A stretch of DNA of 64,000 bases. Source: Candidatus Gastranaerophilales bacterium. GTDB lineage: Bacteria; Cyanobacteriota; Vampirovibrionia; Gastranaerophilales; Gastranaerophilaceae. The stretch spans positions 62,001 through 126,000 of the forward strand of contig CALURL010000001.1 in NCBI GenBank assembly GCA_944323155.1, given 5' to 3'. Numbering within the stretch: position 1 is the first letter of the stretch; every line of letters begins with the position of its first letter. Position numbers and translations under genes: made by a program. Below are positions 17,921-28,748 of this stretch, in pieces. The notes beneath the pieces are model-generated. The model saw nothing but the letters and a program-made list of their open reading frames with translations. It had not been told where the DNA came from and made no database searches.

Positions 17921-18313
17921 ATGGATAAGTTAGATTTATATAGATGCGAGATTTGCGGTAATCTTGTTGAAGTAATTCTTCCTGGCGGCGGAACTTTAGT
18001 TTGCTGCGGAGAACCTATGCATTTTATTGATGGTAAAAATCGTGAAGAAATGGCTATGGAAAAACACATTCCTGTTTTTGTAAAAAATGATGAGGGAAAT
18101 GATATAGTCAGAGTTGGAGAAATTCTTCACCCTATGGATGATGACCATTACATAACGTTTATACAAACAATATCCGAAGATAAAAAATGTTCACATTTAC
18201 AATATTTTAATCCTGGTGACAAACCGGAAATGTTACTAGAACAAAAGCTCGGTAAGACAATTGCAAGAGAATTTTGCAACTTACACGGGCTTTGGGAGGG
18301 CGAAAGTGATTAA
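17921..18313 (+). CDS. Desulfoferrodoxin / superoxide reductase (2Fe type)
   Basis: A 130-residue superoxide reductase that reduces superoxide to hydrogen peroxide in anaerobes. The N-terminal desulforedoxin-like domain has the cysteine site CEIC..CC (residues 9-30). The catalytic domain carries the ligands of the square-pyramidal Fe(His)4Cys site: EKHIPVF, HPMDDDHYI, and FCNLHGLW near the C-terminus. The region from 17769 to the start is AT-rich, with a GAAAGGAG ribosome binding site. The ferritin gene follows with an eight-base overlap, so the pair likely forms one oxidative-stress operon. Confidence 0.93.
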   Translation: MDKLDLYRCEICGNLVEVILPGGGTLVCCGEPMHFIDGKNREEMAMEKHIPVFVKNDEGNDIVRVGEILHPMDDDHYITFIQTISEDKKCSHLQYFNPGDKPEMLLEQKLGKTIAREFCNLHGLWEGESD

Positions 18314-18818
18314 TGAGAAAGTAGAAAATGTTCTTAATGCACAAATTAACAAGGAATTTTATTCAGCATATTTGTATCTTGCAATGTCTGCTTATTTTGA
18401 CGAAATTGGTCTTTATGGCTTCGCCAATTGGACTAAAGTTCAGGCACGCGAAGAAGTAGATCATGGCATGATTTTATTTGATTACATTATTGACAGAAAT
18501 GGGACTGTTAACTTGCAACAGATTGATATGCCGGAAAAATCTTTTGAAAATCCACTACAAGTATTCAATAAAATTTATGAGCATGAAAGATCTGTTACAG
18601 AAAGCATTGAATGTGTTGCATCTATGTCAGAAGAAGAATGCGATATGGCAACCAGAAATTTTATCAACTGGTATATCGCAGAACAAGTTGAGGAAGAATC
18701 AAACGTAATGGATGTAATTTCAAAATTAAAAATGTTTGCAGATGACAAAACAGCTCTATATTTATATGATAAGGAGCTTAAAGAACGAGAGTACAAAGCG
18801 CATTCTTATAAACTTTAA
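18306..18818 (+). CDS. ftnA: Ferritin (non-haem, bacterial), GTG start
   Basis: A 170-residue ferritin that oxidises Fe(II) and stores iron in a 24-mer. Ferroxidase ligands are visible in INKEFYSAYLYLAM, AREEVDHG (ExxH) and EQVEEESN. The frame is open from an ATG at 18261, but that would add 15 residues unlike the family. A GTG at 18306 preceded by GGGAGGGCGAAA gives VINEKVENVLNAQI, the family N-terminus. The GTG lies inside the last codons of the superoxide reductase gene, so translation is probably coupled. Iron storage next to superoxide reductase fits limiting Fenton chemistry. Confidence 0.92.
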   Translation: MINEKVENVLNAQINKEFYSAYLYLAMSAYFDEIGLYGFANWTKVQAREEVDHGMILFDYIIDRNGTVNLQQIDMPEKSFENPLQVFNKIYEHERSVTESIECVASMSEEECDMATRNFINWYIAEQVEEESNVMDVISKLKMFADDKTALYLYDKELKEREYKAHSYKL

Positions 18819-22885: not shown

Positions 22886-23242
22886 CTAACAAACAAAGCT
22901 GCTTGAACTACCTCCGCAGGAACCGCCAGATGAAGCACCGCAGCTTGCTGAACCTGTTGATGCACCTGTAAAATTAGCACCTCCTAAAACAGATACTGCA
23001 GATGAAAAATTACTTAAAAATCCGCCTGTAGAAGAGGATTCTGAAGTTGTATCAGCATATTGCGAATAGTCTACAGCAAAAGGATTACTTGATGAAAATA
23101 CATCATATACATTTGTTGAAAACAAACTCTTTCCGCTTGCCATTGCAAGTGAACCAGCAGTTTCAACTGATTCAACAGGTTTATTGTTCATAATTTGGTT
23201 TGCTGCTCTTTCTTGTGATGTTTTGGAACTTATGTTATTCAT
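22886..23242 (-). CDS. Small Ser/Gly/Cys-rich protein of unknown function (atypical-promoter group)
   Basis: A 118-residue protein that I do not recognise. The N-terminal half is polar (MNNISSKTSQERAANQIM) with a short helical stretch. The second half is dominated by Ser, Gly, Thr and Ala, and the last 26 residues carry three cysteines in a Gly/Ser setting (SCGASSGGSCGG, then FVC at the end). No Sec signal peptide is present. The tail recalls leader-core layouts of modified peptides or Gly-rich surface proteins. No maturation enzyme is adjacent, so both ideas are speculative. AGGAG is six bases before the ATG. The promoter at 23282-23310 matches that of four other genes in this window. Confidence 0.65.
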   Translation of the reverse strand: MNNISSKTSQERAANQIMNNKPVESVETAGSLAMASGKSLFSTNVYDVFSSSNPFAVDYSQYADTTSESSSTGGFLSNFSSAVSVLGGANFTGASTGSASCGASSGGSCGGSSSSFVC

Positions 23243-23441: not shown

Positions 23442-24098
23442 ATGCTAAAGAAATTATTACTAATACTTACAATAATGACAACCATTACAATGAATTTTGC
23501 CTTTGCAAATTCGAATTTTTTGAATTCTGTTGTACTTGAAAAAGGTGATGATGGATACAATATAATTTTAAGATCTGATAACAAGGCAAAAGTAAAGAAA
23601 TCTTTTAAGTCTGATGATAAAATCACATTAACTCTTAATGGAATTACAACATCAAATGATTTTAATACCATGTACAAAAATACATCTGAAGTTAACAATA
23701 TTGTAGTTGAAAACACAGATGCAAATACTGTCAAAATATACATTCAAGCTCCAGATATTTCAAAGGCTAATATAGTATTTGATACGCCAAATTCAGCGCC
23801 AATTGTTGTAAGTGATAATTTCGCAGCTCAAAAAACTATTTGGACAATAATTTCACTTGGGCTTTTGCTTATAATAATGCGCTCTGCAAAAAATATTAAA
23901 ACAGGTAATATGCTTTATGACTTGCATCAGCAGGTTATTCGTGAGAGAGAAATGGAAATGTACGAAAACTTTAAACAAGAGCTTAAGCATAAACCTAAGA
24001 TATATGATAACTCAAATTTGCCTCTAAGAAACAGAGAGTTAAAAAAATATGAAACACTAAGGACTAAAAATAATACAAAACAGCTAACACGTATTTAA
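23442..24098 (+). CDS. Exported AMIN-like protein with C-terminal membrane helix, function unknown
   Basis: A 218-residue protein with a Sec signal peptide (MLKKLLLILTIMTTITMNFAFA, cleavage near residue 22), an extracytoplasmic beta-rich domain (about 25-115; ILRSDNKAKVKKSFKSDDKI and ITLTLNGI resemble AMIN domains of amidases and secretins), a membrane helix at about 130-147 (TIISLGLLLIIM), and a Lys-rich cytosolic tail. The AMIN assignment is tentative. GAGG stands upstream of the ATG. A strong terminator follows at 24102-24135. Confidence 0.7.
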   Translation: MLKKLLLILTIMTTITMNFAFANSNFLNSVVLEKGDDGYNIILRSDNKAKVKKSFKSDDKITLTLNGITTSNDFNTMYKNTSEVNNIVVENTDANTVKIYIQAPDISKANIVFDTPNSAPIVVSDNFAAQKTIWTIISLGLLLIIMRSAKNIKTGNMLYDLHQQVIREREMEMYENFKQELKHKPKIYDNSNLPLRNRELKKYETLRTKNNTKQLTRI

Positions 24099-25258: not shown

Positions 25259-25381
25259 AACTTAAAGTTTAATATAAAAAATAATGTTATGCAATTAAAT
25301 AGTTATAGCAGATAACAAATAAGGGAATTTAATTATTTTCTCAATATATATAATTAATTTAGAAAGGCAGTGGTACAAAGT

Positions 25382-26992
25382 ATGTTTTATAATTATTCAC
25401 ACAACAGCGGATATGACTATAATGAGTGTATTGCACGCGGAGCTTGCTCAGTATCTCCTAATGTTTCGGCTATTCAAGAGGTCATGCTAATTATTTTCAA
25501 ACAAATGGCTGATTATGTTTTAAAACTTGATGAAATTGAAGAAGAGGGGCTTGAAGATATTAAAATTAGTATTATTGGACAGTTGATTATGCTTGATTCT
25601 GTCGCAGAATATTCAGAAGAGCAACTGCTCAGCATGTTTAATATTCAGTATAATAACTTAATTAAATTAAAAACTTCTTATCAAAGCCACTGCAAAGCCA
25701 AGGGGCTGAAATGCTCAGATATAAAAGATATTTTAAAATTTTCGCCGGACATGAAGTTGTCAAATATCATAAAAATAGGTGAAAAAGCATATCTTGAAAG
25801 GTTAAAGCAAATTACATCAGACAAAAAATACATCTCAGAAATACTTTTGAGTGTTATAAAAAGCGTAGCAAGCAACATTATAGTTTTCAGCGAGTTTGGT
25901 AAATCTGTTGAGTTTGCTTGTAATAAAGTATTAGATGCACTTAATTTATTTAATAAAAAGAACATTAAACAAGAAGAGATTAAAATTCAGATAAGCTCTC
26001 TGGCTGAGTTGAATATTGAACTTTTTAAACTAATATTTTCAGCTAAAATTGCTGCATATGGAGATATTACAGAAACAGAAGTGTCTTATTCGACTCGTCC
26101 TAATAAGGCAATTCTTGTGTCAGGCTCGAATTTTTCTGATCTTCATGCAGTATTAGCTGCTGCCCAAAATGACGATATTGATGTTTATTCAAATGGAAAT
26201 TTACTAATTTCACATGCATTTTCTTTATTTAAAGAATATAAAAATTTCGTCGGACACTTTGGAAATGGCGTTGATTCAACAATTCTTGATTTTGCGACTT
26301 TCCCTGGTTCTATATTGCTAACAAAAAACGAAACAAAAAATGTTGAATACCTGTATCGCGGAAGGCTTTTTACAACAGACAGAGTCTCTCCAAAAGGAAT
26401 TGTGCAAATTGTAAATAACGATTATACTCATTTAATTAATTCTGCTCTGGAGGCAAAAGGATTTGCAAAAGGTCAAGAGCGTAATTCTGTTGTTGTCGGC
26501 TACAATGAAGACTCGCTTAATAAAAAATTGGATTATATATCAGAAAATTTTAATAAAGGAGAGTATGAGTATCTTTTTATAATTGGTTTAGCAAATTATT
26601 CAAGCGCCCAGCATGATTATTTTAAGAAACTTTTCAAACTTCTTCCTAAAAAAAGTTATGTTATAAGCTTTTCTTACGGTGAAAATTCAGACAATTCTTT
26701 TGTTTTAAATCTCGGCAATGATTATTCTATAGTTTTAAATGTTCTAGCAAAGTTATTTGAAAAAATACAAATTAATTCAGAAAATCTTATATTCTTTTTG
26801 ACAAAATGTGATGTTAATACGCTGTCAAATATTATAAATTTAAAGGAAAAAGGAGCAAAAAATATTTTTCTAACAGAATGTCCTCCATTTATAGTCAACC
26901 CAATGGTTTTAAAAGAATTTATAAAAATATTTGATGTTCATAATACGACAACCCCTGGTAATGATATCGAAAGTATATTAAATAATAAATAA
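25382..26992 (+). CDS. Hybrid-cluster-protein-like (prismane) homologue without cluster ligands
   Basis: A 536-residue protein with the fold signature of hybrid cluster protein/hydroxylamine reductase: KAILVSGSNFSDLHAVLAAA, IDVYSNGNLLISHAF, FVGHFGNGV, FPGSILLTKNE, RLFTTDRV and the C-terminal KGAKNIFLTECPPF and TTPGNDIESIL. Comparison by memory with Desulfovibrio HCP suggests that the His, Glu and Cys residues holding the hybrid Fe-S-O cluster are replaced (for example THGEM by SNGNL, TTNC by TKNE, EQK by TKC). Only two N-terminal cysteines remain (IARGAC). It is therefore probably not a reductase. The frame is open from a GTG at 25370; the ATG at 25382 is preferred, although the AAAGG spacing is long. 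Confidence 0.7.
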   Translation: MFYNYSHNSGYDYNECIARGACSVSPNVSAIQEVMLIIFKQMADYVLKLDEIEEEGLEDIKISIIGQLIMLDSVAEYSEEQLLSMFNIQYNNLIKLKTSYQSHCKAKGLKCSDIKDILKFSPDMKLSNIIKIGEKAYLERLKQITSDKKYISEILLSVIKSVASNIIVFSEFGKSVEFACNKVLDALNLFNKKNIKQEEIKIQISSLAELNIELFKLIFSAKIAAYGDITETEVSYSTRPNKAILVSGSNFSDLHAVLAAAQNDDIDVYSNGNLLISHAFSLFKEYKNFVGHFGNGVDSTILDFATFPGSILLTKNETKNVEYLYRGRLFTTDRVSPKGIVQIVNNDYTHLINSALEAKGFAKGQERNSVVVGYNEDSLNKKLDYISENFNKGEYEYLFIIGLANYSSAQHDYFKKLFKLLPKKSYVISFSYGENSDNSFVLNLGNDYSIVLNVLAKLFEKIQINSENLIFFLTKCDVNTLSNIINLKEKGAKNIFLTECPPFIVNPMVLKEFIKIFDVHNTTTPGNDIESILNNK

Positions 26993-28041: not shown

Positions 28042-28070
28042 TTGCTTATTTTCTTAAAATTTTGTATAAT
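28042..28070 (+). promoter_or_regulatory. Promoter of the gene starting at 28080
   Basis: TTGCTT (28042-28047), a 17-base spacer and TATAAT (28065-28070). The predicted transcript starts near 28077, only about three bases before the ATG at 28080. An alternative TTG start at 28062 would fall in the promoter. Confidence 0.65.
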
Positions 28071-28079
28071 AAACATGTT

Positions 28080-28748
28080 ATGAAAAAGGTTATTATTGAA
28101 AAAGCAAAAGAAGTTATATGTTTTTTGGTTTGTGTCGGCGTGCTTGCAGGTATTGCTTATTATACAGGACTTCTCAATTTTGTATCTACAGATAGTATTA
28201 AGGCTTCTTTTTCAAAATTCACAAACACTGTTGCAAACCCTAAAGAAATAAAAAATTCCGGTTTTAATCCAAATGGCAGAAGTGTCACCAGATATAACAA
28301 TGTAAGGACTTATGCAATTCCGCAATCTGTAATTAAAGCAGTAAATAATTCAAACCAGTGGAATGATATATTTTTTGGAAGCAGGCTTAATGTATTTTAT
28401 GTAACAGGAAAGGGATATTTCTCACCGCATTTTGATAGTGTTGTGAAACATTATGTTTCATCATCCAAAGAAAATAGAGGTTATTTTACAGTAAAAGCAT
28501 ACGATACTTCCAGATATAATGCAATGAAAAATAATGTTGATATTGGCCCTGCAAAAATTTGTGATTCGATTGAGGAATGCGCAGGGCAAGCAAATAAGGC
28601 AAATGCTCATTCAACAGTATCTGCTTTTGTTGATAGATGTGCAAAAGCACTGTGTATCATTAACACAAGAAGAAGTGAATATGTTATGCTCCGTTCCAGC
28701 AATCCTCAAAAAGCAGTCGATACTCTTGAAAGTCTAAAAGGGTGGTAA
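28080..28748 (+). CDS. Membrane-anchored protein of unknown function
   Basis: A 222-residue protein with a Lys-rich N-terminus (MKKVIIEKAKEV) and one membrane helix (about residues 11-31, CFLVCVGVLAGIAYYTGL). It then has an extracytoplasmic domain with SVTRYNNVRTYAIPQS and four cysteines (ICDSIEECAG, RCAKALC) that may pair in disulfides. No known family is recognised. The start is set by the promoter at 28042-28070. Its stop faces the leuD-like gene tail to tail, two bases apart. Confidence 0.7.
   Translation: MKKVIIEKAKEVICFLVCVGVLAGIAYYTGLLNFVSTDSIKASFSKFTNTVANPKEIKNSGFNPNGRSVTRYNNVRTYAIPQSVIKAVNNSNQWNDIFFGSRLNVFYVTGKGYFSPHFDSVVKHYVSSSKENRGYFTVKAYDTSRYNAMKNNVDIGPAKICDSIEECAGQANKANAHSTVSAFVDRCAKALCIINTRRSEYVMLRSSNPQKAVDTLESLKGW

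Follow-up and report, generated by a model that had tools for sequence, protein, structure and literature searches.

What becomes of a hybrid cluster protein (HCP) once the ligands of its metal cluster are gone is the question raised by one gene in the window, the 64,000-nucleotide stretch of Candidatus Gastranaerophilales DNA that was analysed here. On the forward strand, which carries every feature of the gene given below, an open reading frame of 536 codons (25382-26992) extends from an ATG at 25382 to a stop codon at 26990-26992, with a GTG at 25370 as an alternative start. Its product (P0001 in the alignments and counts) matched the Pfam Prismane profile (PF03063) at 88.7 bits (E = 4.6e-25), exceeding the curated cut-off of 27. 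The NCBIfam hydroxylamine reductase models NF003658 (180 bits, E = 7e-53) and TIGR01703 (178.4 bits, E = 2e-52) were matched nearly end to end, at about half of their equivalog cut-offs of 367 and 360.8 bits, which were therefore missed. The top HCP chain in the PDB was recovered with an E value of 1e-25, and the closest solved relatives were the HCPs of E. coli, M. thermolithotrophicus and D. vulgaris.

An AF2 model of the protein, built from 60 aligned sequences, had a mean pLDDT of 87.7, with residues 1-23 alone falling below 50. In Foldseek, this model matched class I/II HCPs with an E value of 1e-25 and TM scores of 0.77-0.80, and comparison with class I/II HCP structures gave Z scores of 30.2-30.9 over 499-511 aligned residues at 16-20% identity. 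Ni,Fe-CODH and CooS-V, which belong to the same superfamily and are distant in fold, gave Z scores of 15-17; fold searches with the model returned nothing else outstanding. Homology to HCP, which a preliminary description of this DNA had claimed from fold motifs and a C-terminal block, is borne out by the agreement of the Prismane, NCBIfam, PDB and fold matches, and lies far beyond chance. By reading frame, homology and modelled fold, the gene was annotated as encoding a 536-residue, cluster-less HCP-fold protein. Its fold makes it a relative of HCP; the features that define HCP, namely the hybrid ligands, the cubane and the equivalog score, place it outside that group.

Ligand positions were located in a MAFFT alignment of the window protein with E. 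coli Hcp and 27 canonical HCPs from related genomes, leaving out the repeat loci L001, L002, L016 and L018, the fragment L071 and the split canonical HCP of L053. Sites of the hybrid cluster are given by D. vulgaris ligand numbers; of these, Glu494 is named in PMC6344411. Glu492 of E. coli HCP, the position used for the Glu ligand in the alignment, is the equivalent of Glu434 of M. marburgensis (PMC10502027). In all 28 canonical rows, the cubane motif had its four cysteines, the hybrid cluster its seven ligands and the E-x-K motif its lysine. The window protein kept none of the seven ligands, and the lysine was also replaced. In this alignment, the His ligand H244 is replaced by S249 (26126-26128), the Glu ligand E268 by N273 (26198-26200), the Cys ligand C312 by E317 (26330-26332), the persulfide Cys ligand C406 by A404 (26591-26593) and the Cys ligand C434 by Y432 (26675-26677). 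The Cys ligand C459 lies opposite G445 (26714-26716), in a gapped region where the register is uncertain. Substitution of E494 by D477 and of K496 by N479 turns the Glu-x-Lys into Asp-x-Asn; the first of these changes is conservative, and the Asp could still bind a metal. Thus, the earlier claim that the whole cluster site had been substituted stands for the seven ligands and the lysine, and was too sweeping in that one replacement is mild and two cubane cysteines remain.

The loss extends across the family. Among 162 unique members (170 sequences minus eight with identical last 400 residues), none of the seven ligands was kept in 122, one in 32, two in 7 and three in 1. Open frames shorter than 430 codons were excluded from this wider set, as were L001, L002, L016, L018, L053, L071, L072, L093 and L104 (repeats, a fragment, a broken gene, E. 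coli, and repeats of L004/L005).

The window protein contains seven cysteines, at residues 16, 22, 104, 111, 180, 476 and 500. C16 and C22 (25427-25447) are the kept half of the N-terminal [4Fe-4S] cubane motif and correspond to C15 and C21 of D. vulgaris HCP; the equivalents of C3 and C6 are gone. Conservation against the canonical rows marks C104 (25691-25693) as specific to the family. A further new cysteine, C476, opens the motif C476-D477-x-N479 (26807-26818) beside the former E-x-K (E494, K496), and is immediately N-terminal to D477, which occupies the site of the lost Glu ligand. Its covarying partner is C500 (26879-26881). Across the window protein and the named loci, which are the best 80 of 177 confirmed, C16, C22 and C476 were present in 81 of 81 rows, D477 and C500 in 80 (the remaining row being truncated at C500) and C104 in 79. 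Of the alignments used, A1 omitted L015, for which the start was ambiguous, and A3 comprised P0001 with 59 of the 80 named loci. In the ligand-sorted rows, C104 was found in 31, C476 in 34 and C500 in 34 of 37 rows without the ligands (hereafter stripped rows), as against 1, 0 and 0 of 28 canonical rows.

The two C-terminal cysteines were gained and lost together. Over the 162 unique sequences, both were Cys in 153, both were replaced in 7 and position 500 was a gap in 2, with no single replacement. Of the 375 pairings of well-conserved columns compared, none showed co-loss as complete as this one (Jaccard 1.0, runner-up 0.73). In a quick tree with SH-aLRT support only, strongly supported branches required the pair-lost label to change four times or more, so the losses were not one event. 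In the secondary structure of the AF2 model, C476 lies three residues past the strand at 469-473, and C500 three residues past the strand at 494-497. The two are thus predicted to sit at neighbouring tips of a strand-helix-strand unit, where a disulfide or a shared ligand is plausible. The other cysteines followed their own course: C16 and C22 were both Cys in 138 of the 162 sequences and C104 in 152, C104 was lost independently of C476/C500 (co-loss 0.21), and three loci (L027, L030 and L031) lacked C16/C22 and kept the other conserved cysteines. Elsewhere, H278 was kept in 149 of 170 sequences, and position 477 was Asp in 105 of 170 and Asn in 37.

Matches to the protein were found in 53 of 59 searched genomes, including the source genome. 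When sorted by ligands, the rows comprised 28 canonical (E. coli included), 37 stripped (the window protein included) and five half-stripped, the last from families f7 and f6. In f1, the family of Candidatus Gastranaerophilales to which the window belongs, 34 of 36 sampled genomes carried a stripped copy and 11 of 36 an intact canonical HCP, plus one canonical HCP split by an in-frame stop; the window's own genome contained no canonical HCP. When the order was sampled more widely, 277 of 287 genomes had a match of one kind or the other. The named relatives were almost all Candidatus Gastranaerophilales or Melainabacteria MAGs, some with record titles that mention gut or rumen; named loci may overlap with the sampled genomes as the same genome, exact repeats alone having been removed. 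In three records labelled Brachyspira, Heliobacteriaceae and Muribaculaceae (L139, L112 and L144), the gene was of the Gastranaerophilales form and its nearest neighbours were the same; these are probably mislabelled bins. Outside the order, within the same class (117 genomes drawn), none of 15 fetched loci was of the stripped form, and all 15 kept the seven hybrid ligands; one of the 15, L214, showed a gap at the first cubane Cys in the alignment. A sixteenth genome of the class from outside the order (G058) also held a canonical HCP (L044). A plasmid search recovered distant HCPs alone, at below 60% identity.

In a tree, all 37 stripped rows fell on one side of a single branch with a support of 100/100, apart from the 28 canonical HCPs. 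The stripped copies are thus one clade. Across the 10 closest pairs of stripped genes, dN/dS was 0.039-0.135, and a frame of about 480-560 codons was open in all 162 unique sequences. The stripped gene is under strong purifying selection.

Some copies within the order depart from the single, intact gene. Stripped genes occurred in tandem in three genomes, with three copies in G013 (L032, G013:C145) and two each in G017 (L033, G017:C41) and G280 (L184, G280:C220), and cysteine patterns diverged among these tandem copies. The canonical HCP of G010 (L053:1642-3210) was found as two open frames with one in-frame stop, which marks either a broken gene or an assembly error.

The five half-stripped rows fell between the canonical and the stripped rows in an unrooted tree. 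L039 (f7) retained the four cubane cysteines and three hybrid ligands, L046 and L050 (f7) retained two cubane cysteines and two hybrid ligands, and L059 and L064 (f6) retained two hybrid cysteines. If the root lies on the canonical side, these rows form a ladder of progressive ligand loss. The f7 and f6 paralogues are possible intermediates of that loss and look like survivors of its intermediate steps, and their existence makes the order of ligand loss testable.

The stripped gene has a frequent neighbour. In close relatives, the gene order was UDP-GlcNAc 2-epimerase (reverse strand), glutaredoxin, stripped HCP, then rpsG and rpsL (reverse strand), the ribosomal names being assigned by eye. 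In 76 of the 80 named loci (the best 80 of 177), the gene immediately upstream, in the same orientation, encoded a glutaredoxin of about 76 residues with a CPYC motif; this figure holds for the close clade and not for the whole family, as these loci were found with patterns built on close relatives. Over the unique stripped loci, glutaredoxin was adjacent in 96 of 162, of which 78 were type A and 18 type C; 64 had none and 2 were cut. No glutaredoxin adjoined any of 33 canonical HCP loci. The type C proteins are GrxC-like, and types A and C occupy different genomic places. Three type A proteins scored 38.7-42.5 bits against Pfam Glutaredoxin and 50.1-60.9 bits against GST_N_3, and two type C proteins scored 57.9 and 66.7 bits against Pfam Glutaredoxin. 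The preliminary description was silent on this upstream gene, on the kept cubane cysteines and on the C476/C500 pair.

At the window locus, a gap of 123 bp (25259-25381) is found where most close relatives hold the glutaredoxin gene. No upstream glutaredoxin was present there or in either of the two congeners, though C476/C500 were kept, and no type A glutaredoxin was matched anywhere in the window's own genome, which encodes one unrelated glutaredoxin elsewhere. The window's own genus has lost the upstream gene. Conversely, L034 and L167 had an adjacent glutaredoxin and had lost the cysteine pair, G031 encoded a type A glutaredoxin without any HCP-like gene, and in several genera the type A gene lay elsewhere in the genome. 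A strict rule under which glutaredoxin occurs if and only if the cysteine pair does is contradicted by L034, L167 and the window's genus. Given these cases and G031, the partnership is a tendency and not a rule.

The most likely reading of the sequence evidence is that the window protein is a functional HCP paralogue that has lost the ability to bind the hybrid Fe-S-O cluster. Beyond this, we tentatively favour, at somewhat short of even chances, a re-use of the HCP frame as a thiol-redox protein served by glutaredoxin. The metal site would have been emptied and the frame kept, with the chemistry shifted from metal to thiol. Two successive strands of a C-terminal Rossmann-like domain would carry C476 and C500 at their tips, next to the former Glu ligand site. 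Within the vacated cavity of the active site, the pair would act as a redox-active dithiol (or form a mixed disulfide, a persulfide or an S-nitrosothiol), with glutaredoxin as the usual reductant that re-reduces it. From the observed fold, ligand loss, purifying selection, conservation and co-loss of C476/C500 and linkage to glutaredoxin genes, we infer the spatial closeness of the two cysteines, their redox activity and the role of glutaredoxin as reductant, together with any substrate. C16, C22 and C104 are also conserved and fall outside this explanation. A broader version, in which an entire active site was exchanged within one fold and an HCP metalloenzyme frame became a metal-free, glutaredoxin-reduced thiol-redox enzyme throughout the gut Gastranaerophilales family, is possible and more doubtful.

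The main rival to the thiol reading is metal binding at a new site. Here, C476, C500 and D477, perhaps with H278, would bind Zn or Fe, C16, C22 and C104 would hold a remodelled Fe-S cluster, or both, with glutaredoxin supplying or repairing the metal site. Joint gain and loss of C476/C500 suits two ligands as well as it suits a disulfide; D477 and C16, C22 and C104 are near-invariant in the close clade represented by P0001 and the best 80 of 177, and H278 is widely kept. Dithiol glutaredoxins can carry Fe-S clusters, which would suit such a partner. However, Asp at position 477 gives way to Asn in many sequences of the overall set, and the N-terminal cysteines and C104 are lost independently of the C-terminal pair. 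Given the low pLDDT of residues 1-23, the model also predicts no ordered site in that segment in the absence of a ligand. We consider a new metal site unlikely.

A scaffold or regulatory pseudoenzyme, in which the fold would offer a surface for binding NO-stress or redox partners, for instance, and would have no chemistry of its own, is a weaker candidate again. Retention of the fold after loss of all catalytic ligands fits this explanation, as does the occurrence of the cluster-less copy both with and without a canonical HCP in f1 genomes. However, it accounts for the losses and not for the gains, namely two cysteines that covary perfectly at the former active site and a recurrent linkage to glutaredoxin, and the absence of canonical HCP from the window's genome means that canonical HCP is not an obligate partner there. 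Near-invariant residues of the family's own, the covarying cysteine pair and the linked glutaredoxin in most close relatives argue for chemistry over mere scaffolding. Of the earlier proposal of a new structural or regulatory role, a new role is thus upheld by conservation, purifying selection and the single clade; a structural or regulatory one is not the best fit.

A true HCP with ligands conserved at shifted positions, for which overall homology alone speaks, is effectively excluded by alignment at the ligand positions: inspection of the whole window protein found no cysteine at residues 181 to 475, so none could have moved to the C312, C406, C434 or C459 sites, and all seven ligands were aligned by the same method in 33 of 33 canonical rows, as in the 15 HCPs from outside the order. 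The chance of a decaying pseudogene or assembly artefact is practically nil in view of the low dN/dS, the 162 open frames and the conserved gene order.

Compared with known systems, the window protein is closest to HCP classes I/II (Prismane; D. vulgaris 1E2U/1E1D, M. thermolithotrophicus 8CNR, E. coli 7DE4), with which it shares the fold over its full length, its length, its domain order and several structural Gly, Tyr and Thr positions. It differs from them in lacking the seven ligands and half of the cubane cysteines and in having the new C104, C476 and C500, and its relatives are linked to glutaredoxin, with a CPYC-motif gene upstream that is absent at the window locus, whereas classes I/II are linked to Hcr. 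The core fold is also shared with class III HCP (M. marburgensis 7E0L; C67Y variant 7WSX) at Z scores of 29-30. Class III is reported to retain the ligands and to be about 100 residues shorter in its middle region, whereas the window protein has the length of classes I/II and lacks the ligands. In the C67Y variant, which has lost a single cubane cysteine, the N-terminus is disordered and the Glu ligand swings out (PMC10502027), in keeping with the low pLDDT of residues 1-23 here. Altered cluster motifs in CODH relatives, and a clade that lacks CO activity, have been described (PMC6344411 and PMC13056359); the relatives described there keep a metal cluster or most ligands, whereas the window protein keeps none.

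Searches of the open-access literature for HCP with Gastranaerophilales or Melainabacteria, and for hydroxylamine reductase with Melainabacteria, found no report, and as far as this literature shows, a cluster-less HCP family is apparently unreported. Nearly all work on HCP has centred on its unusual Fe-S-O cluster. A frame that is under strong selection without that cluster separates the role of the fold from the role of the metal, and relatives carrying both forms offer a comparison of canonical and stripped HCP within one genome. The gene also carries a warning for annotation: since it passes the Prismane profile, it could be called a hydroxylamine reductase or an NO detoxification gene, which it very probably is not.

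Other reading frames surround the locus. A 118-residue open reading frame with a Ser/Gly/Cys-rich tail lies on the reverse strand at 22886-23242 of the window, and 63 of 81 stretches contained a member of its family close to the locus. Two forward-strand neighbours, at 23442-24098 and 28062-28748, had no Pfam match over the cut-off; the former was conserved in 69 of 81 stretches. Seven kilobases upstream of the stripped HCP gene, at 17921-18818 on the forward strand, what by eye looks like a desulfoferrodoxin-like open reading frame is followed by a ferritin-like one, a putative oxygen/iron stress pair.
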